Positions 308 through 10,849 of a DNA stretch of 64,000 nucleotides are shown piece after piece. The position numbers and the translations under genes were made by a program. Below the pieces are notes generated by a model. It did no database searches. It was given only the letters and a program-made list of their open reading frames with translations, and was not told where the DNA came from. The stretch comes from Entomospira culicis (GTDB lineage: Bacteria > Spirochaetota > Spirochaetia > WRBN01). The stretch covers positions 317,433 to 381,432 of the forward strand of contig NZ_CP118181.1 of the NCBI RefSeq assembly GCF_028748145.1, read 5' to 3'. Position 1 is the stretch's first letter. Each line of letters begins with the position of its first letter.

Positions 308-2332
308 CTAGTTTGTCTTCTTCTCATAGTGGGAAAATTTCATCGAGAAGGAGGCGCGCCCTTGGCTCTGACTACGTAACTCGGTGCTGTAGCCAAACAT
401 CTTGGTGAGCGGAGCTTGCACGTCGAGCAACTGAATATTATCCTGCATATCTACCCCCATTACAATACCGCCACGCGTCGTGAGTTTGCTAATGACCTCG
501 CCCACATAGTCGTTAGGCACCTCGATGATCACCGCCATCACAGGTTCCAAGAGGATCGGATTGGCCTCGGTACAGGCTTTTTCGGTGAGTATCGCACCTA
601 AACTTTGATAGGCAACTTCGTGGGCAAGCTCCTCATTGTATTGCACACTCTGGATGGTGACGTGGATATCCAAGCAGGCGTAGCCCATCACGATACCCGA
701 AGCAAGCGAAGCTTCAATCCCACGAATGATCGCTTGTTGAAGTTCATCGGGTAGGGTTTTGGCTAGCTCATTGGTGATGCGATTACCAGCGCCGCGCTCG
801 TTAGGTGCTACGTGGAGGGTGAGACCAGCGAAGGACTCTTTGCCGTTAATTGGGCGATCGAAGGTCTCGGTGAGGGTGGCACTGCCTTCAATGCTTTCAC
901 GATAGCTAACTTGTGGTTTACCGACATTAAATTGTGCTTTAAAGTCATCCCTCGCTCGCGTGGTGAGGACATCGAGATGGAGCTCCCCCATGCCACTAAT
1001 CAACAATTGCCCCGTCTCACTATTCTCTTTAAGGAGGAAGGTCGGATCTTCGCGTTGGAGTAGCGTCATTACCTCTTTGAGTTTATCGAGATCGGCAAGG
1101 CTCTTTGGCTCAATAGCGATGGAGATGACTGGCTCGGGAAAGTCAATCGATTCGAGGACTACGTTTAAGCCATCGGTGATGGTATCTCCCGTCTGCGCGA
1201 GTTTAAAGCCCTGAATCACACCGACATCGCCGGCTTTTAGTTCATTGATCTGCTCGGGCGTGCGCGCGTGCATGCGGTAGAGTTTGCCAATACGCTCTTT
1301 CTTCTCCTTGCCCACGTTGAGCACCATCGTACCGCTCTTAATGCTACCGGCATAGACCCTCGCATAACAGAGCGCCCCGCTCTCTTTGTCTTGCTGAATT
1401 TTAAAGATCAATGCGACAAAATCCTTGGTAGAAAGACGCGAAATAGCAATCTCTTCGCGTTTATTCTTACTGACCAATTTAGCTGGCACGTCGCCAAGCT
1501 CAAAGGGATCGGGCAGGAAGTGGGTAACGGCATCCAAAAGCGGTTGCACGCCCTTGTTTTTAAGGGCACTGCCCATCAATACGGGGGTAAGCTCGCGTGC
1601 AATCGTAAGACGGCGAAGCTCGCTAAGAATAAGATCTTGTGGAATCTCGGCCTCTTCTAGCAAGAGCGTAATAAGCTCTTCGCTATAGGTAGAGAGGGTA
1701 TCAAGCATTTGATCTCGCGCCTCTTGGGCTTGCTCGAGGTGTTCGCTCGGAATGGGGGAGCTGATTACCGTTGCCCCCTGTGAGGATTCGTCAAATTGCA
1801 GATACTGCATGGTAATGAGATCGATGAGACCGAGTAACTCTTCTTGTTGATAGATGGGCAGTTGCAGTGCCAGTGGTTTGGTGTGGAGCTTTTCTTCGAT
1901 CTGCTTTAATACATGGAGATAGTTGGCACCGGTGCGATCGAGCTTGTTAATGAAGGCGATGCGTGGCACGTGATACTTGTTTGCCTGTCGCCAGACGGTC
2001 TCACTTTGGGGTTGCACGCCACCAACGGCACAGAATACGGCGACAGCGCCATCGAGTACGCGAAGCGAGCGCTCTACTTCGGCAGTAAAGTCGACGTGGC
2101 CTGGGGTGTCGATGAGGTTGATCTGGGTATTGTGCCAAAAACAGGTCGTCGCCGCGCTCTGAATGGTGATGCCACGCTGTTGCTCTTGCTCCATCCAATC
2201 CATCTGGGTGGTGCCGTCATCCACATCGCCGATGCGTCTACTCTTGCCCGTATAAAAGAGAATGCGCTCACTCACGGTGGTCTTGCCGGCATCCACGTGC
2301 GCCATAATCCCGATATTTCTCATCTGTGCCAT
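308..2332 (-). CDS. fusA: Elongation factor G paralogue (spirochaetal EF-G2 type)
   Basis: Translational GTPase of 674 residues. All G motifs are present: AHVDAGKT (11-18), RGITI (53-57), DTPGH (75-79) and NKLD (129-132), followed by EF-G domains II-V. Spirochaetes carry two EF-Gs; in Borrelia the second was reported to act only in ribosome recycling together with RRF. The short, uninterrupted G domain start here resembles that second form more than the translocase, so a recycling role is likely but is inference. A tetracycline-resistance ribosomal protection protein is a less likely alternative. An SD-like GGAG sits just before the ATG. The gene diverges from the DUF262 cluster. Confidence 0.85.
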   Translation of the reverse strand: MAQMRNIGIMAHVDAGKTTVSERILFYTGKSRRIGDVDDGTTQMDWMEQEQQRGITIQSAATTCFWHNTQINLIDTPGHVDFTAEVERSLRVLDGAVAVFCAVGGVQPQSETVWRQANKYHVPRIAFINKLDRTGANYLHVLKQIEEKLHTKPLALQLPIYQQEELLGLIDLITMQYLQFDESSQGATVISSPIPSEHLEQAQEARDQMLDTLSTYSEELITLLLEEAEIPQDLILSELRRLTIARELTPVLMGSALKNKGVQPLLDAVTHFLPDPFELGDVPAKLVSKNKREEIAISRLSTKDFVALIFKIQQDKESGALCYARVYAGSIKSGTMVLNVGKEKKERIGKLYRMHARTPEQINELKAGDVGVIQGFKLAQTGDTITDGLNVVLESIDFPEPVISIAIEPKSLADLDKLKEVMTLLQREDPTFLLKENSETGQLLISGMGELHLDVLTTRARDDFKAQFNVGKPQVSYRESIEGSATLTETFDRPINGKESFAGLTLHVAPNERGAGNRITNELAKTLPDELQQAIIRGIEASLASGIVMGYACLDIHVTIQSVQYNEELAHEVAYQSLGAILTEKACTEANPILLEPVMAVIIEVPNDYVGEVISKLTTRGGIVMGVDMQDNIQLLDVQAPLTKMFGYSTELRSQSQGRASFSMKFSHYEKKTN

Positions 2333-2437
2333 TGTTTACTCCGTTAGAAAAAGGTACTTTATTCTACCAAATTCGGCATAAAAGCACAAGGGTTAGAGGC
2401 GTGGTTTGTTGGCTGATAAATTTTTATTATTTTGTTA

Positions 2438-2466
2438 TTGAAAGGTAGAAATTTTTGTGCTATACT
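2438..2466 (+). promoter_or_regulatory. Sigma-70 type promoter of the DUF262 cluster (copy A)
   Basis: TTGAAA (2438-2443) and TATACT (2461-2466) are separated by exactly 17 bp. Transcription should begin near 2473, giving a leader of about 15 nt that contains the GGAGG ribosome binding site. The whole block 2424-2481 is repeated, diverged, at 5343-5400. Confidence 0.65.
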
Positions 2467-2487
2467 GGTACGAATGGAGGATAACGT

Positions 2488-3399
2488 ATGACAAAAATGG
2501 ATGAAATGATGCATGAGTTAGAGAAGGTGCAAGGCATTGATTGGGTGGCTATCTTTAAGAAACGCTACAAGATTAATAAGACTGAGGTACTTGCCGGCGC
2601 TTTTTTATGGTATGTTTGGGCGGATGAGCCAGAGGGTATTGACTTTGATGCGGATATTGCCTTTGATAAAAACGTGGTATTATTTGATAAAATTTTTACG
2701 CAAAAGATGGCGGTTGTGGATGCCATCGCCTCGCTGGAGCTAAATAAGGCAGTGGAGAGTGAGCATAATTTATTCAAGCTCTATACCCACTACTTGGCGA
2801 ATGAAGAGCATTTTGAGGCATTGCATCAGTATGTTATTGATTGGGAAAAAGCCGAATCCTTCCCAGATCAACAGTGGTATTATTGCTATGCTGCCGTGCG
2901 TCACCACTTGGTTAAGGATAAGAGTTTCCCTAAGATTAAAGGTAGTTTGCATGATATTTCGGATGAGGTTACTAACTATCTGATGGGCGAATCAGATATG
3001 AATACTTGGATGAATAAGAAAGAGCAAGATTTTACTGGGGATCTATCGGAGTGTTTAACCAATCTCTTTTATGAGGAGTATGAGCTACCCCGCAGTATTA
3101 CCGATGATGAAAGTGATAAGTTTTGGCACCGCTTTCATGCACGCATCTACGCTGCCCACGATTTAGCCCAGTTTAATCGTCGCTATAAAGATATCGCCTG
3201 CTTTGCTCTTGCCCAAGAGCTAAACATTGCTGTTGATCCTGAAGATCTTTATGGAAGTGCGTATTGGATTATTCTTGAACAAGAGCCGTTAAAGCATGCC
3301 GAGATTTGTCAACACTTTTACACCACGATGGATCGCGTGGCTAACCCACAAGCTTATGCACACTTTCTCTTACGCCATGGCTACCACGAACATCTTTAA
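2488..3399 (+). CDS. Unknown protein, first gene of the DUF262 cluster
   Basis: A 303-residue soluble, acidic and probably all-helical protein with many aromatic residues (Trp, Tyr, Phe) and no signal peptide or membrane segment. I do not recognise a family and see no catalytic motif. GGAGG lies 7 nt before the ATG. The next gene starts 12 nt after its stop, so it is almost certainly co-transcribed and co-expressed with the first DUF262 protein. Its position suggests an accessory subunit, inhibitor or recognition partner of the DUF262 proteins; that is inferred from position only. Confidence 0.8.
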   Translation: MTKMDEMMHELEKVQGIDWVAIFKKRYKINKTEVLAGAFLWYVWADEPEGIDFDADIAFDKNVVLFDKIFTQKMAVVDAIASLELNKAVESEHNLFKLYTHYLANEEHFEALHQYVIDWEKAESFPDQQWYYCYAAVRHHLVKDKSFPKIKGSLHDISDEVTNYLMGESDMNTWMNKKEQDFTGDLSECLTNLFYEEYELPRSITDDESDKFWHRFHARIYAAHDLAQFNRRYKDIACFALAQELNIAVDPEDLYGSAYWIILEQEPLKHAEICQHFYTTMDRVANPQAYAHFLLRHGYHEHL

Positions 3400-3411
3400 A
3401 GGAGAGGCGCG

Positions 3412-5307
3412 ATGGCAAGCATTTTAATGAAGATATCCGATCTTTTTAATGGAAAACGACTCTTACGTATTCCGCCGTATCAGCGAGGTTATGCTTGGCA
3501 GAAGGAGCAATGGCAGGATCTTTGGGATGATCTGGATGGGTTGCTGGAGCATAAAAAACACTATACGGGGCTACTTACCCTCGCTAAGGCAGAGCATTAT
3601 CAGACAAATGCAGTTGAGCAAGCGTGGTTAGCACACGAGAGCGATCGTGCTGTTTATTATTTGGTAGATGGTCAGCAACGCTTGACCACGCTCTTAATTA
3701 TGATGAGTTTGTTGACTGAACTGGGTGTTTTATCTTTAGCAGAAGAGCATCAATATCTCCAAACTACCGACTCTTTGGCTCTTTTTGATTATGAGATTCA
3801 TAAGACCACACAAGAGTTGCATGACACTTGGCATAGTATTCTTCAGAGTCGAGAGCTACCAACTAGCTATGAAAGTCTTTATGCGAAAAATATGCTGGAG
3901 GCTAGGCAATTTTTTCATAATCAATTCGTATCACGATTACCAACAGAGCAACGGATAGTGTGGCAAAAAATAGCTAGTGGGCTAGTGTTTAATCTCTTTG
4001 AGGTGGCAGCGGAACAAGATATGCACCTTCTTTTTGAGTCGATGAATAATCGAGGCAAGCCATTAACCATCGTCGAACTTTTAAAGAGTCGATTAATCCA
4101 CCTCTCTACCAAAATAGAAGCAACCTCCGAGCAAGTTAAGCAGCTACAAGCCAAGATTGATCAGACATGGCACACCTTGTTTCATTATTTAGATCATCAA
4201 GAGAGCAGTGGTACGGTAGAGGCATACCTTGAGGCACACTTTTTGATTATTTGGGAGCGTGAGGATGAAAGGTGGCAAGATCGCTTGTTAAAAAAGATCT
4301 TCCCTACAAAAATGTCATCTAGTGAATATGTAACCTTAGAATTTATCGAAAAGTACTTAAGGAGTCTCTCGGAATGGGTTAGTTATTGGGCATTGGTGCA
4401 TGATTTTGCTACGGTAACGATCTCTCGATTTGAGCATATTATGATCACTCCACAAGAGAGGCGTTGGTTGGCAGCAATTTTGCGAGAGAGTAACAACTCC
4501 TCTTTGGTTGCATTATTGGCGGTTACGCTCTTTGAGGTGCAAGATAATCCTCATGAGAGATCTTTTTTTCTTCCCTTTTTACAAGCTGTAGAGCGTTGGA
4601 TCTTTTTGCAAGGTAATTTTGGTGATTCTGGGGATTTTGGTTGGGCTCAAACCTATGCCTATCGTCTTTATCGCTATAGTCAATCTCATTATCCACGCCA
4701 AGGTTCGTTAAAGGCAATGAGAGAGAATCGCGAGAAATTATCCCAAAGCATGGTAGCTAACCTAGATTATTTTTTAAAGAAAATAGAAACTCTCTTTGAA
4801 AAAAGGAGCGGAAAGCTTAAAAATGGTTTTTATGCATGGACAGATTTACGCTATTTTTTATATGAATATGAATTATCCTTAGCCGAGCAAGCAGGAGTAG
4901 AGCAGATTATCTCTTGGTCTAAGGTAGCCAAAACCGCTGATGAAGATAAATCATCGCAGGTGAGTATTGAACACATTTTCCCACAAACATTTGAGAAGAT
5001 CGATTATTGGCAGCAGCATTTTGCTCATCATGATGAGGCGACACAGCATCGATTGTTGCATGCCTTGGGTAATCTCGTGTTGCTGGAGAAGAATAGTGAG
5101 GCGAGTAATAAATCTTATCCTGAGAAGTTAGCGATTTATCAAAAAGATACATGGAGTGCCAAGCGGTTAGCCAGCGATTATCCTTTAGATTGGCATGATG
5201 AAATGATTGTTAAACGAAGTGTAAATCTATTAACCTTTATGCAAGAGCGCTGGCATATTTCTAAACTTGTTGAGCAATATAACAAATTTTTTGATATGGA
5301 GAAGTAG
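3412..5307 (+). CDS. DUF262-DUF1524 protein (GmrSD/SspE-like), member 1
   Basis: A 631-residue protein with two recognisable parts. The N-terminal DUF262 part has IPPYQRGYAW (20-29), DGQQRLTT (86-93) and the later family motif ESMNNRGKPL. In the related GmrSD and SspE proteins this part binds and hydrolyses nucleotides (NTPase, ParB-like fold). The C-terminal DUF1524 part has EHIFPQ (His521) followed by GNLVLL and an Asn-rich segment, the layout of a His-Me (HNH-like) nuclease. Characterised relatives cut modified or phosphorothioated phage DNA. The start ATG follows AAAGGAGAGG. Its modification specificity cannot be told from the sequence. Confidence 0.88.
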   Translation: MASILMKISDLFNGKRLLRIPPYQRGYAWQKEQWQDLWDDLDGLLEHKKHYTGLLTLAKAEHYQTNAVEQAWLAHESDRAVYYLVDGQQRLTTLLIMMSLLTELGVLSLAEEHQYLQTTDSLALFDYEIHKTTQELHDTWHSILQSRELPTSYESLYAKNMLEARQFFHNQFVSRLPTEQRIVWQKIASGLVFNLFEVAAEQDMHLLFESMNNRGKPLTIVELLKSRLIHLSTKIEATSEQVKQLQAKIDQTWHTLFHYLDHQESSGTVEAYLEAHFLIIWEREDERWQDRLLKKIFPTKMSSSEYVTLEFIEKYLRSLSEWVSYWALVHDFATVTISRFEHIMITPQERRWLAAILRESNNSSLVALLAVTLFEVQDNPHERSFFLPFLQAVERWIFLQGNFGDSGDFGWAQTYAYRLYRYSQSHYPRQGSLKAMRENREKLSQSMVANLDYFLKKIETLFEKRSGKLKNGFYAWTDLRYFLYEYELSLAEQAGVEQIISWSKVAKTADEDKSSQVSIEHIFPQTFEKIDYWQQHFAHHDEATQHRLLHALGNLVLLEKNSEASNKSYPEKLAIYQKDTWSAKRLASDYPLDWHDEMIVKRSVNLLTFMQERWHISKLVEQYNKFFDMEK

Positions 5308-5356
5308 GCTTTTACTGATTATTTGTTATAAAATAGATAGATCTATCATTTTATTG

Positions 5357-5385
5357 TTGCATGATAGAAATTCTCGTGCTATAAT
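5357..5385 (+). promoter_or_regulatory. Sigma-70 type promoter inside the DUF262 cluster (copy B)
   Basis: TTGCAT (5357-5362) and a perfect TATAAT (5380-5385) are 17 bp apart. The leader again holds GGAGGA at the same distance from the -10 box as in copy A. The second and third DUF262 genes can therefore be expressed independently of the first two genes. Confidence 0.65.
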
Positions 5386-5406
5386 AGTGCGAATGGAGGA
5401 ATCATT

Positions 5407-7035
5407 GTGGAGACTAGTTGGAAAAAGACCGTTGGCGATTTGCGCAAAGGCGACAATGGAAAACCTTATCGCTTTTATGTGCCGGCCTATCAGCGTGGGT
5501 ATCGTTGGGGTAAGCAACAGGTGGAAGATTTATTACGGGATCTGATTGAGTTTAAGGATGCTAAGGAGAATGGTGCGGTTGAGGGTCAATATTGCTTGCA
5601 ACCGCTGATTGTGAAAAAACGCAACGATGGATCGTACACCGTAGTTGACGGGCAACAGCGACTCACTACTATCGCTATTTTTAGGCAAGTATCTAAGTCA
5701 GAGTCAGGATTTAGTATTGAGTATGAGACGCGTGAGAAGAGTAAGAACTTTTTGGCAAGTTTGGGAAAAGACGATGAGCAAGCCAAGAATGAGAAGGATG
5801 ATAACATTGATTATCATTATATGTGGCAAGCGTATGATGTGATGAATAAGTTTTTTGATAAGCAAGTTGAGCCAAGAGAAGAACTCATGACTGAACTTAA
5901 TGATAAAATAGAAAATTCGGCTTTTTTTATTTGGTACGAGATAGAGAAAAATACCGATAAAATTGACGACAACACCTACGAAATTGAGCTATTTCAGCGG
6001 GTTAATATGGGTAAAATTTCCCTAACCAATGCCGAGTTGATCAAGGGTGTCTTCTTTCGTGATCAAAACTATACTAATACCACGATGGAGAGCGAACAGC
6101 TAGCTTTGGCAAACTCTTGGCAAGAGATTGAGCATGGCTTAGAGAACGATGCCTTTTGGTACTTTTTTAATGGAGTAAACAAGAGCTATGAGACACGGCT
6201 GGATGTTCTTTTTCAGATCATTGCAAGGCAGGAAGATAAGAATAAGCGCGAGTCAGATCAAAAGGATCCCATCTATGCTTTTCATGTTTTTGATGAGCTC
6301 TTTCGCGAAGAAAAAGACCGAACACAACTGCGTGAGACTCTCTGGAAGAAAGTGAAACTTCTAAATGCACAGTTGCACTACTGGTATGATAACTTAGATT
6401 ATTATCATATTATTGGTTATTTGCTTGCCACGGGTACGGGGGTTCAAAAAATTCTTGATTTAATTGATGGTAAAAAGAAGAGTCAGCAGATCGATGATTT
6501 GATGGCTTTAGTGAAAAATCGAAAATTTGTGGATACCTTTCTACAGAATCCTGAAGCGATCGAGTATGGTAGCAGTGGCGATAAGAAAGCGATTGCTAAC
6601 TTATTATTGCTCTTCAATATCGCCACGCTGGTGGCTCAAGGGGATAAGCAACATCGTTTTCCCTTCGACATCTACAAAAAAGAGGACTGGGATATTGAAC
6701 ATATCCACGCTACCGCAGATAAGGATGGGGAAGGCGATGCTGATAATCGTATCCACAACTTAACCTTACTTGATGCTACTACCAATCGTGCTTATGGTAA
6801 TAAACCTTTTCTCGAGAAACGCGCATTTTTACTTAAAAAAGAGCAAGCGGGGCAGTTTATTCCCACCGCTACCCGTAATATCTTTATTAAAGCCTATACT
6901 GATGATCTACAAGAGGGAGAGTTGAAGCTGTGGACGGATGCAGATAAAAAGCAATATATCGAAAAAATGCAAGTAATTTTACAATCATTTTTTGACAAAG
7001 AGTGGCGAAAGAAGGAGCGAAACAGTGAGCGATAA
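5407..7035 (+). CDS. DUF262-DUF1524 protein, member 2
   Basis: A 542-residue protein starting at GTG, with GGAGGA ending 6 nt upstream. DUF262 motifs: VPAYQRGYRW (25-34), DGQQRLTT (81-88), and QRVNMGKISLTNAE further on. The C-terminal region contains EHIHA with His432 and His434 followed by IHNLTLLDATTN, the His-Me nuclease pattern of DUF1524 in the form with HA instead of the more usual PQ. It is only distantly similar to member 1 and clearly not a recent duplicate. Its stop overlaps the start of member 3, so the two are translationally coupled and probably made in fixed ratio. Confidence 0.88.
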   Translation: METSWKKTVGDLRKGDNGKPYRFYVPAYQRGYRWGKQQVEDLLRDLIEFKDAKENGAVEGQYCLQPLIVKKRNDGSYTVVDGQQRLTTIAIFRQVSKSESGFSIEYETREKSKNFLASLGKDDEQAKNEKDDNIDYHYMWQAYDVMNKFFDKQVEPREELMTELNDKIENSAFFIWYEIEKNTDKIDDNTYEIELFQRVNMGKISLTNAELIKGVFFRDQNYTNTTMESEQLALANSWQEIEHGLENDAFWYFFNGVNKSYETRLDVLFQIIARQEDKNKRESDQKDPIYAFHVFDELFREEKDRTQLRETLWKKVKLLNAQLHYWYDNLDYYHIIGYLLATGTGVQKILDLIDGKKKSQQIDDLMALVKNRKFVDTFLQNPEAIEYGSSGDKKAIANLLLLFNIATLVAQGDKQHRFPFDIYKKEDWDIEHIHATADKDGEGDADNRIHNLTLLDATTNRAYGNKPFLEKRAFLLKKEQAGQFIPTATRNIFIKAYTDDLQEGELKLWTDADKKQYIEKMQVILQSFFDKEWRKKERNSER

Positions 7036-9214
7036 TCAGCGTATGACATTATTAGAGTTATTAGCAAAGCAAGAGGTGGTGATCCCCCGTATTCAGCGAG
7101 ATTACGCGCAAGGGCGTGAGAGTGAGAAGATTGACTCTATCCGTAACAAATTTCTTAGCGATTTAAAAGAAGCGCTCTTGCATGATGATAAATCCTTGGA
7201 TTTAAACTTTATCTATGGTAAAACTGTCAACGATAGCTTTTTACCTGTCGATGGGCAACAACGCCTCACCACCGTATGGCTATTGCATCTCTATCTTTAC
7301 AGTCGAGCTGGCAACAGTGAAGCTTTGGAGAAATTGAAGAAATTCAGTTATGAAACCCGAGAAACTTCTAAAGCATTCCTCAAGGAACTGGTTGAGCATC
7401 ATGCCGATATGCACCACGAAGCTCCACCAAGTGAAGCGATTGTAGATAGTCATTGGTTCTCGCATGATTGGGCATTCGATCCGAGTGTGCAGTCGGTCTT
7501 GGTGATGCTGGATGCGATTCATAAACATTTTGCGGAGAGCGACTTACAAACGTTGATCGCAGGCTTGGAGTCTGGGAAGGTCTACTTCTTTTATCTGCCC
7601 ATTGCCGAAATCGGTTCACCAGATGATCTCTATATCAAATTAAATGCCCGTGGCAAGATGCTTAGCTCGTTTGAGAATGTTAAAGCTATCTTGGTGGGAC
7701 AGGCTCAAGAGCATTTGGATAAGGATGATTTTACAAAGAATATGGACGGCATCTGGACGGATTACTTTTGGTCTCGCTCTAAAGAGAAATTTGATGAAGA
7801 TTTTGCGCGCTTCCTTGAGGTCTTGTTTCATAACTACGGCGTGATTGATACTTATGGCAACAAAGATTGGTGGTATACGCTTTCTAATGAGACCACGCTT
7901 GCCAAGATTGATGCGCCGTTTCTCACCACGCTCTATCATACGCTCAACTTTTTGTGTAAGGTGGATAAGGACGAAAAGTTGAATGCTAAAATCGATCCCT
8001 TCATTCTACCAAAAGAAGAGATCAATATTGAGCGACGCTACATGTTTTTTGTCTTGAGTGAGTACGCCCGACAAGCTAAGGATAAAGCGGTGGATCTTTG
8101 GGCTGATGGTTTGGCGCATCAATGGTTTCGCGTGATGAACAACCTTGTCTACAATAGCTACACAACGGTTTTTCGCGAGGATGATGAGCGGGTAAAAACC
8201 TTTAGTAATGTGCTTGCTGAAATCAAAAATTTAAGCGAGCATTGGGATGGTATTTTAGCGTACATCAGTGATAGTAAGCATAAAATTGGCGCGTTGAATC
8301 AAGAGCAAGTGAAAGAGGAGCGAATCAAGGCCAGCATTATCTTACACCATCCAGAGAAGGAAGCCTTTGCTACAGCCATCTATGCGGCGGAAAAGCATCG
8401 ATACTTTGGTGGGCAAATCCGCGCAGCACTCTACCTAGCCGGCGATAAAGATAAGCCCGAAGCGTTGGCTTTGGCAACCTTTAATAAGTATTGGGCAACC
8501 CTTAGCCAGCTCTTTAAGGATAGTGTGGAGCAAGAGGCGCAGGCGATGCATGTATTACGCAGTGCTTTGCTTACTTTTGGTAATGATTGTTATTATCGTC
8601 CATCAGAATACATTCAGTATATGTTTTATTCTACTAATCCCCGTGAAACAAATAGTTTACGTGCACTCTTTGCCGATGAAGCTAAGCGAAAATACACGTT
8701 ACCTTTGTTAGATGTTTTACAGAAAAAGTCATTAGCTGACATCATTGAGAATCATCTAGTTGACCCAGCAACGAAAAGAAATGATTGGCAGTACTGTTTA
8801 GTCAAATACCCTCAATTATTTCGACATTTACATCCCACGCATATGTATGCAGATTTCTATACACATGTTAACCGATTTCTTTTACTATCAAAAAAGACGG
8901 GTGGTGGGTATTGCCACAGTGTTTTTTTGGCTGCATTAGAGGATGAATTGAATACGTCAGCTATTAAACAGAATCTACATGTAGAATATTGGTTTAAAAG
9001 TGGCGCAAAAGATTATCATAATTTAGTTTTTCCCAAAGAAAATGGGTGGGATCGTAAGGGCTGGGTCGTATATGATTATATTGAAAAACAATTTATTATT
9101 TTGCATCATAATAAAAAGGGGGATGAAGAGGAGCTGTGGCGTTCTACCTCAGACGATCCGATTTCCGAGACGGTGGCGTATATTGAAGAGAATATCAAGT
9201 TATTTCGTAAATAG
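7025..9214 (+). CDS. DUF262-only protein, member 3
   Basis: A 729-residue protein. The chosen start is GTG 7025, which overlaps the previous stop and has AAGGAG 7 nt upstream; a longer form from TTG 6992 has no such site. It has IPRIQRDYAQG (20-30), DGQQRLTT (76-83) and KLNARGKMLSSFEN, so the DUF262 NTPase part is intact. No EHI-type DUF1524 nuclease motif is visible in the roughly 500-residue remainder. It may be a nuclease-less regulatory or sensor subunit. Its last third (about 8560-9130) looks clearly more A+T-rich than its middle. A terminator follows. Confidence 0.85.
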   Translation: MSDNQRMTLLELLAKQEVVIPRIQRDYAQGRESEKIDSIRNKFLSDLKEALLHDDKSLDLNFIYGKTVNDSFLPVDGQQRLTTVWLLHLYLYSRAGNSEALEKLKKFSYETRETSKAFLKELVEHHADMHHEAPPSEAIVDSHWFSHDWAFDPSVQSVLVMLDAIHKHFAESDLQTLIAGLESGKVYFFYLPIAEIGSPDDLYIKLNARGKMLSSFENVKAILVGQAQEHLDKDDFTKNMDGIWTDYFWSRSKEKFDEDFARFLEVLFHNYGVIDTYGNKDWWYTLSNETTLAKIDAPFLTTLYHTLNFLCKVDKDEKLNAKIDPFILPKEEINIERRYMFFVLSEYARQAKDKAVDLWADGLAHQWFRVMNNLVYNSYTTVFREDDERVKTFSNVLAEIKNLSEHWDGILAYISDSKHKIGALNQEQVKEERIKASIILHHPEKEAFATAIYAAEKHRYFGGQIRAALYLAGDKDKPEALALATFNKYWATLSQLFKDSVEQEAQAMHVLRSALLTFGNDCYYRPSEYIQYMFYSTNPRETNSLRALFADEAKRKYTLPLLDVLQKKSLADIIENHLVDPATKRNDWQYCLVKYPQLFRHLHPTHMYADFYTHVNRFLLLSKKTGGGYCHSVFLAALEDELNTSAIKQNLHVEYWFKSGAKDYHNLVFPKENGWDRKGWVVYDYIEKQFIILHHNKKGDEEELWRSTSDDPISETVAYIEENIKLFRK

Positions 9215-9231
9215 CGTGTTTTTAAAGAGAG

Positions 9232-9254
9232 AACCCTCCAGAGGCCGGAGGGTT
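9232..9254. terminator. Hairpin between the DUF262 cluster and the peptide-binding protein gene
   Basis: An 8-bp G+C-rich stem (9232-9239 with 9247-9254) and 7-nt loop lie between two convergent genes. The T-tract is short, so it may act as a weak terminator from both sides. Confidence 0.5.
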
Positions 9255-9274: not shown

Positions 9275-10849
9275 CTAGGGGCGGACGATGTCGCTCTCTT
9301 GAAACTGGTAGAGGCTGTTGATACGCTTCATGTTGATGAGGTGGGGTTTTACGAGGTTGAAGATATGTTGATTTGTTAGCGGAATGACCACGGTTGCCTC
9401 TTCCACCAAGATGCGTTCTGCCTCTTCATACAGGGCGCGACGTTCGTTGGCGTCGGGGCTAGCTTGGGCGCGCTCGAGGATATCATCTAGCTCGGGGTTT
9501 TGGTAGTTTACCGATGCGCGATGGCTACTTGTCCCGTGGAGATAGTCTAAAAAGATGCTGCCGTCGGGATAGGGCAAGAGCCATGCGCGATTATGCAGGT
9601 AGACTTGTCCGCTCATGGTGAGATCGAGAAAGGCAGCCGCGTCTGCTTCTTTGATGATAAGGTTGATACCTGCCTCTTTGAGCTGGGCTTGCGCGAGCGT
9701 CCATAATTGGCGATCGAGCACTTTTCCGCTGGTGTAAACCACTTCGATATTGAGAGGTTCGTTATAGCCTGCCTCGGCAAGGAGTTCTTTGGCGCGTTGG
9801 GTACTATGCTTAGGCAAGGTGATATGGGGGTTGTACCCTACCGATCCCACAGGAACGAAATTGTCTACTTTATCGGCAAGATGTTGGTAGACATGTTCTG
9901 CGATATCGTCGCGATCTAGCGCATAAAGTAGAGCCTTGCGCACCAATGGATTACCAAGATCTTGATGTTTGGTGTTGATGAAGATGACATTGGTACCAAG
10001 TGTATTCCAGCGATGAATTTCATCACGATAGTTGCCAGAGGCGTACTGTGCGTATTGATCGGGGTTGAGCTCTACCACATCGAGGTTGCCCTGTTCATAC
10101 TCTAAAAGCGCGGTATAGGCATCATCCATATAGCGGAATTCGATGCGATCGATAGCCGATCGCCCATCTCGATACGCCTCATTTACCTCCATGATCACAC
10201 CTTCATTGGGATGGTAGCGCACAAAACGGTACGGGCCACTGCCGATCAGCACGCTATGCCCCCATGTTTCTTGATGGGCGAGGAAACTTTCTCGAGGGAT
10301 AATGCCCGCATAGCCCATGCTCAGCGCATCAACAAAGGCAAGCGATGGTCGACTCAACTCGATGGTAAAGGTGTAATCATCGATGATGGTAAACCCACTG
10401 ATGCTTTGTGCCTCACCCGCAAAGTAGGCATCACTCCCGGCAACTTCTTTATAAAATGCGTTGGAGACACCGGGAGTCTGGGGATCAAAGAGACGCTCAA
10501 AGAGAAATTGCACATCACGACTGGTGAGGTGGCTTCCATCATGAAAGTAGACATCGTCTCTTAGCGTAAAGGTGTAATGCAATGCATCTTCGGAGATAGT
10601 GGGTAACGCCTTTGCCAAGAGAGGCACGATATTCATCTCTTCATCTACGGTATAGAGCGTCTCAACCATATGATTATAAATACTTTGTACCGCAGCTAAT
10701 GGCGAGAGATGCGTGTCGATAGGCGTGCGCGGATTAGGTACACCCACCATGATGCTCTTGCCCACTGGTTGCGACTTTTTATCGGGATTACACCCGACAA
10801 GAAGAAGTAATAACATCATGAATAGAAAACTTTTTTTAGGTATATGCAT
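9275..10849 (-). CDS. Peptide/nickel-type ABC transporter substrate-binding lipoprotein (SBP_bac_5)
   Basis: A 524-residue protein with a lipoprotein signal ending LLLVGC (Cys20), so it should be lipid-anchored at the outer face of the cytoplasmic membrane. The mature part follows the DppA/OppA family: an early LxPLLAKALP segment, then FTLRDDVYFHDG, and a late block for the second lobe. These proteins bind short peptides or similar ligands and deliver them to DppBCDF-type permeases. No permease or ATPase genes are next to it, so it either serves a transporter encoded elsewhere or has become a receptor. It is a single-gene unit. Confidence 0.88.
   Translation of the reverse strand: MHIPKKSFLFMMLLLLLVGCNPDKKSQPVGKSIMVGVPNPRTPIDTHLSPLAAVQSIYNHMVETLYTVDEEMNIVPLLAKALPTISEDALHYTFTLRDDVYFHDGSHLTSRDVQFLFERLFDPQTPGVSNAFYKEVAGSDAYFAGEAQSISGFTIIDDYTFTIELSRPSLAFVDALSMGYAGIIPRESFLAHQETWGHSVLIGSGPYRFVRYHPNEGVIMEVNEAYRDGRSAIDRIEFRYMDDAYTALLEYEQGNLDVVELNPDQYAQYASGNYRDEIHRWNTLGTNVIFINTKHQDLGNPLVRKALLYALDRDDIAEHVYQHLADKVDNFVPVGSVGYNPHITLPKHSTQRAKELLAEAGYNEPLNIEVVYTSGKVLDRQLWTLAQAQLKEAGINLIIKEADAAAFLDLTMSGQVYLHNRAWLLPYPDGSIFLDYLHGTSSHRASVNYQNPELDDILERAQASPDANERRALYEEAERILVEEATVVIPLTNQHIFNLVKPHLINMKRINSLYQFQESDIVRP

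Follow-up and report, generated by a model that had tools for sequence, protein, structure and literature searches.

Two probable modification-dependent restriction modules, one of GrwAB type, side by side in the spirochaete Entomospira culicis

GrwAB, encoded on VSP-II of V. cholerae and published in 2025, is a two-gene modification-dependent restriction system in which GrwA combines DUF262 with DUF1524, while GrwB, encoded second, consists of DUF262 followed by unknown domains (PMC12137116). Defence is abolished by mutation of R81, H431, N521 or N530 of GrwA, or of R86 of GrwB, and GrwAB homologues occur in ~1% of genomes (PMC12137116). Together with TgvAB, described in 2024 (PMC11411939), GrwAB (PMC12137116) combines one nuclease-bearing with one nuclease-free DUF262 protein, both required for defence. 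An earlier note on the DNA analysed here had taken the known relatives (GmrSD, SspE) to act alone or as a pair; as far as acting alone is concerned, these two-protein GmrSD-like systems have made the view outdated. A DUF262-DUF1524 enzyme in the pglX-pglZ gap of a BREX operon is also a known arrangement, like that of BrxU (PMC10117892).

Here we examine a four-gene cluster (P1 to P4) in the chromosome of Entomospira culicis, contained in a window of 64,000 nucleotides (the whole stretch of DNA analysed). Entomospira culicis is a mosquito-associated spirochaete. The cluster had been proposed to encode one machine of four subunits with separate sensing and cutting parts. Our results favour a different reading, which we consider likely, namely two type IV-like (modification-dependent) restriction modules that lie side by side but are independent of each other: module A (P1-P2), a GmrSD/BrxU-like enzyme accompanied by P1, and module B (P3-P4), of GrwAB type. 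Two-protein modification-dependent restriction enzymes would thereby be extended to a mosquito-associated spirochaete.

Gene content and leader elements of the cluster

The cluster is flanked by a fusA-like gene (308-2332, minus strand) and by a gene for a peptide-binding lipoprotein (9275-10849, minus strand). Its GC content is 39-44%, against ~50% in the upstream neighbour fusA, and it is therefore compatible with acquired DNA. The four reading frames, all on the plus strand, are open and intact where the first reading had placed them. P1 (2488-3399) encodes a predicted helical protein of 303 aa; P2 (3412-5307), a GmrSD/BrxU-like protein of 631 aa with DUF262 and DUF1524 in a single chain; P3 (5407-7035, GTG start), a GrwA-like protein of 542 aa with the same two domains in a compact form; and P4 (~7025-9214, GTG start), a GrwB-like protein of 729 aa with DUF262 and without a nuclease. 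P1 and P2 are separated by 12 nt, P3 and P4 overlap by 11 nt, and ~100 nt lie between P2 and P3.

Pfam recognised GmrSD_N and GmrSD_C in P2 (E-values 1e-32 and 2e-15) and in P3 (1e-30 and 1e-8), and GmrSD_N only in P4 (2e-20). The motif DGQQRLTT is present in all three proteins, EHIFPQ in P2 and EHIHA in P3, while P4 has neither nuclease motif, which bears out the earlier observation of three DUF262 proteins with only two nucleases. The key residues are R90 (DGQQR), H521, N554 and N566 in P2, R85, H432, N451 and N460 in P3 (the histidine 19 residues from the first asparagine), and R80 in P4; the motif residues of P2 are invariant across 13 relatives. The three proteins are indeed dissimilar, with pairwise identities of only ~23-30% over short stretches. 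PADLOC profiles gave just partial matches of the cluster proteins to other DUF262 systems, and NCBIfam profiles gave no matches. As the earlier note had stated, P1 belongs to no known family, with nothing above the cut-off in Pfam and nothing in PADLOC or NCBIfam. A role in anti-phage restriction, as first suggested, is likely.

A 57-bp promoter/leader element precedes both P1 and P3. The first copy (2431-2486, plus strand) has the form TTGAAA-17-TATACT and the second (5350-5406, plus strand) TTGCAT-17-TATAAT, each with an extended -10 and GGAGG. The copies are identical at 46/57 positions and align with a score of 35, against <=17 in 500 shuffles. Allowing <=3 mismatches, the 35-bp core of the element was found at exactly two sites in the 1.77-Mb genome, and a reversed control at none. 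The module A promoter was the best promoter-like site in the scan, such sites being equally frequent in shuffles. Because the second promoter/leader lies in the P2-P3 gap, transcription of the four genes probably starts at two or more points, and it may also read through from P2 into P3. The genes are tightly packed within the pairs P1-P2 and P3-P4, but co-transcription of all four as one operon, previously assumed, is unsupported, given the ~100-nt gap with its own promoter-like sequence. The common leader may co-regulate the two modules, which we put forward as a guess. A hairpin located 3' of P4, AACCCTCC-GGAGGGTT (9232-9254), resembles a terminator for the minus strand and may work in both directions, terminator-like hairpins in the region being no more numerous than in shuffles.

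The two halves occur apart in the same genome

Plasmid p28 of strain BR149 (NZ_CP118187.1, 28,402 bp) carries a P3-P4 pair with 44% and 40% identity to P3 and P4 of the window, and neither P1 nor P2 was found on it. Conversely, a second chromosomal locus (C1, ~970 kb) has the order P1'-P1''-P2', in which P2' and P1' are 40% and 27% identical to their counterparts in the window, and neither P3 nor P4 was found there. It is because each half occurs separately in the E. culicis genome that we divide the cluster into modules A and B. In all, the 1.77-Mb genome holds eight DUF262 genes; a 2015 survey counted <=5 GmrSD homologues per genome, with the maximum in Helicobacter. Plasmid p28 also bears a solitary DUF262 protein gene convergent with its P3-P4 pair (L012:14106-15932, minus strand), an Abi-family gene and RelE/HicA toxin genes.

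A single four-gene system, in which P1 and P4 would be sensing or regulatory subunits common to the nucleases P2 and P3 and co-expressed from twin promoters, would agree with the head-to-tail order without any other gene in between, and with a leader whose core is confined to the starts of the two modules. We regard it as very unlikely given the separate halves, the P3-P4 loci lacking P1 and P2 described below, and the relatives of P2. The latter are single-chain enzymes, several located in the BREX pglX-pglZ gap and others solitary; the closest on plasmids occupy this gap in Acinetobacter BREX operons (29% identity over 97%). No second case of the four-gene order was seen, neither at the P4 loci described below, which have P3-P4 alone, nor among P2 relatives, none of which is accompanied by P1 outside the E. 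culicis genome. Since the order was found nowhere else and the halves are separate in the same genome, two outcomes that the earlier note had itself set beforehand as speaking against its proposal, the four-part machine is unsupported. The associated idea of separate sensing and cutting parts fares better, as the pairing of a nuclease-free with a nuclease-bearing DUF262 protein suggests divided labour.

P1 homologues have so far been found in E. culicis only, in the window and at the second locus, both times beside a P2-type gene. Searches of 148 relatives, of 393 genomes from the phylum and of plasmids and viral contigs detected none, and no P1-like neighbour of P2 relatives was present at 27 viral-contig loci. 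Its paralogues in the genome, one full (27% identity) and one truncated, both lie beside the P2 paralogue. The truncated copy, P1'' (L013:7361-7774, minus strand), sits between P1' and P2', probably starts at MFNID, and comprises ~119 aa with the middle missing. A P1 profile had no similarity to the P2, P3 and P4 family profiles. A match of P1 to a cos-phage capsid protein in PDB (E 4e-4, two-row profile, 114 aa, low similarity) was judged to be due to chance.

On present sequence evidence, P1 is a lineage-specific, fast-evolving partner of P2 and the really new-looking part of module A, which otherwise consists of a known enzyme type. P2 would act as a single-chain restriction enzyme that P1 most likely controls or tunes, the latter being a guess. 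In a toxin-antitoxin-like variant, P1 would restrain the P2 nuclease until infection, module B being a separate GrwAB-like system. A small gene immediately 5' of a nuclease gene, the fast divergence of P1 relative to P2 (27% against 40% identity) and the tandem P1 copies at the second locus are compatible with such an arrangement; nevertheless, P2 relatives exist without P1, so that the enzyme type needs no antitoxin, and AlphaFold2 gave no usable fold for P1 from two sequences (pLDDT 39), which leads us to consider this variant unlikely. Somewhat less doubtful, but still rather unlikely, is the idea that P1 represents an accessory subunit of a new type, serving a single-chain GmrSD/BrxU-like enzyme as sensor, inhibitor or specificity switch, and that the two modules are jointly run from duplicated promoters, covering different phage DNA modifications at once. 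P1 is in any case a small, restricted and quickly testable candidate.

P3 and P4 are strictly linked and co-evolving

The P4 alignment was scanned against 85,000 species genomes, and 80 loci were fetched, belonging to Firmicutes, Actinobacteria, Proteobacteria, Bacteroidetes, Verrucomicrobia and Spirochaetes. A P3-like nuclease gene lies directly upstream of the P4-like gene in every one of them (80/80), the junction being overlapping in 64 and a gap of 0-20 nt in 14. No P1- or P2-like genes were found near the pair in these 80 loci, of which 67 include >3 kb of sequence upstream. Most P4-like proteins are 690-860 aa long, and the family has no recognisable DUF1524 nuclease; P4 as a broken nuclease was accordingly ruled out, the nuclease-free family being conserved across the 80 loci. 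The distance matrices of P3 and P4 are correlated (mirror-tree r = 0.92; <=0.16 in 999 permutations), and a compact clade (window, p28, L021 and L022) is present in both trees with a support of 0.99. The two proteins are thus strictly linked and co-evolve.

In the P3 family the arginine, histidine and both asparagines are invariant in 53 sequences and the two asparagines are spaced by 9 in 53/53, while the distance from the histidine to the first asparagine is 70-97 outside the compact clade and 17-20 within it. The nucleases of compact form (those of the window, of p28, which is locus L012, and of L021, L022 and L155) lack ~65-70 residues between the catalytic histidine and the first asparagine. 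On a viral contig (L155/L162) a compact P3-like gene was seen with no P4 detectable nearby, and on two others (L158, L161) a short nuclease-free DUF262 gene lies directly upstream of a ~595-aa DUF262 gene, in TgvAB-like order. In the P4 family (55 aligned sequences) the arginine of DGQQR is invariant and falls at position 72-101 in 54/55. In the AlphaFold2 model of P4, built from 55 sequences (pLDDT 85.6), the DUF262 core is followed by a long helical stretch and, at the C terminus, by a beta-rich domain (~606-710). Searched by fold, the model had SspE as its sole significant PDB match and returned two DUF262 proteins from the viral library; the C-terminal beta domain received no family name from Foldseek, which listed DUF262 proteins and SspE only.

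In six loci the order is hsdM-hsdS-P3-P4-hsdR, with the pair nested in a type I restriction operon, and other loci have type IIG-like, Schlafen-like helicase, IetA-like or WYL genes nearby. A DUF2779 protein with weak Cas4 similarity is encoded directly 3' of P4 in two Sulfurimonas genomes (L036:8238-9713 and L085:8238-9713), and relatives lie near the pair in three other loci. No P4 relatives were found in a phage-genome collection, and a Pseudomonas P3-P4 pair had no DNA-level match in E. coli complete genomes.

By analogy with published work on GrwAB, BrxU and SspE, P3 and P4 would each use their DGQQR pocket to bind and hydrolyse NTP. P4, with its DUF262, helical body and C-terminal beta domain, may help to recognise modified incoming DNA and then allow P3 to cut it with its His-Me nuclease. 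Two points count against the overall reading, namely the compact P3 of L155 without detectable P4, and the leader common to both modules, which hints at some tie between them. In 80 loci the nuclease-free DUF262 protein is accompanied by one particular nuclease, sometimes in type I restriction-modification operons, and this makes the question of why there are two DUF262 proteins testable by comparative work.

Comparison with described DUF262 systems

SspE is the closest relative of solved structure, the one that P2 and P4 match best in PDB by sequence or by fold, and an SspE-type effector reading phosphorothioate DNA may be envisaged on that ground. Nonetheless, the likeness is confined to the DUF262 core with DGQQR. 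Phosphorothioate sensing is unlikely because no gene of the PAPS-reductase family (PF01507, DndC/SspD) was found in the E. culicis genome, the profile matching in all 14 control genomes, and we deem this the least probable of the readings considered. P2 resembles BrxU and the BREX-embedded enzymes in joining an N-terminal DUF262 to a C-terminal DUF1524 within a single chain, and in having DGQQR and the His-Me histidine and asparagines, but it lies outside BREX and has the P1 gene upstream; a PDB search gave no significant sequence match of P2 to the BrxU structures.

Like TgvAB, P3-P4 is a two-gene DUF262 pair with one nuclease that can sit within a type I restriction-modification operon, so that a TgvAB-type rather than a GrwAB-type identity deserves consideration. 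We hold it to be highly improbable, as tgvAB starts with the nuclease-free gene and has the nuclease gene in second place, H571 and N602 of TgvB are 31 apart as opposed to 17-20 or 70-97 in the P3 family, and GrwB and TgvA differ outside DUF262 (published comparison, PMC12137116). P1-P2 differs from TgvAB in that its first protein has no DUF262.

The GrwAB-type reading of module B agrees with most of what has been published on GrwAB. Both consist of two adjacent genes, the nuclease-bearing DUF262 protein first and the nuclease-free one, with a long extension, second (window, p28 and 80/80 loci). DGQQR is intact in both proteins and H...N(9)N in the first (53 and 55 sequences), as in N521/N530 of GrwA; the distance between H431 and N521 of GrwA (~90 residues) compares with 70-97 in most of the P3 family but with 19 in the compact P3 of the window, a difference that counts against the match, and R86 of GrwB falls inside the range of the P4 family (72-101). 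GrwAB occurs in ~1% of genomes and the P3-P4 family in 3/369 genomes from a sample of the class to which a Pseudomonas host belongs; none of the three carriers has exactly the residue numbers of GrwAB. We write GrwAB-type and not GrwAB because the likeness is drawn from published architecture, gene order and residue spacing, and because the P4 family has Y (YIKLN) in the place of F in the GrwB motif FxxxN. Module B thus appears to be a member of an emerging, already published kind of two-protein restriction system rather than part of a new four-part machine.
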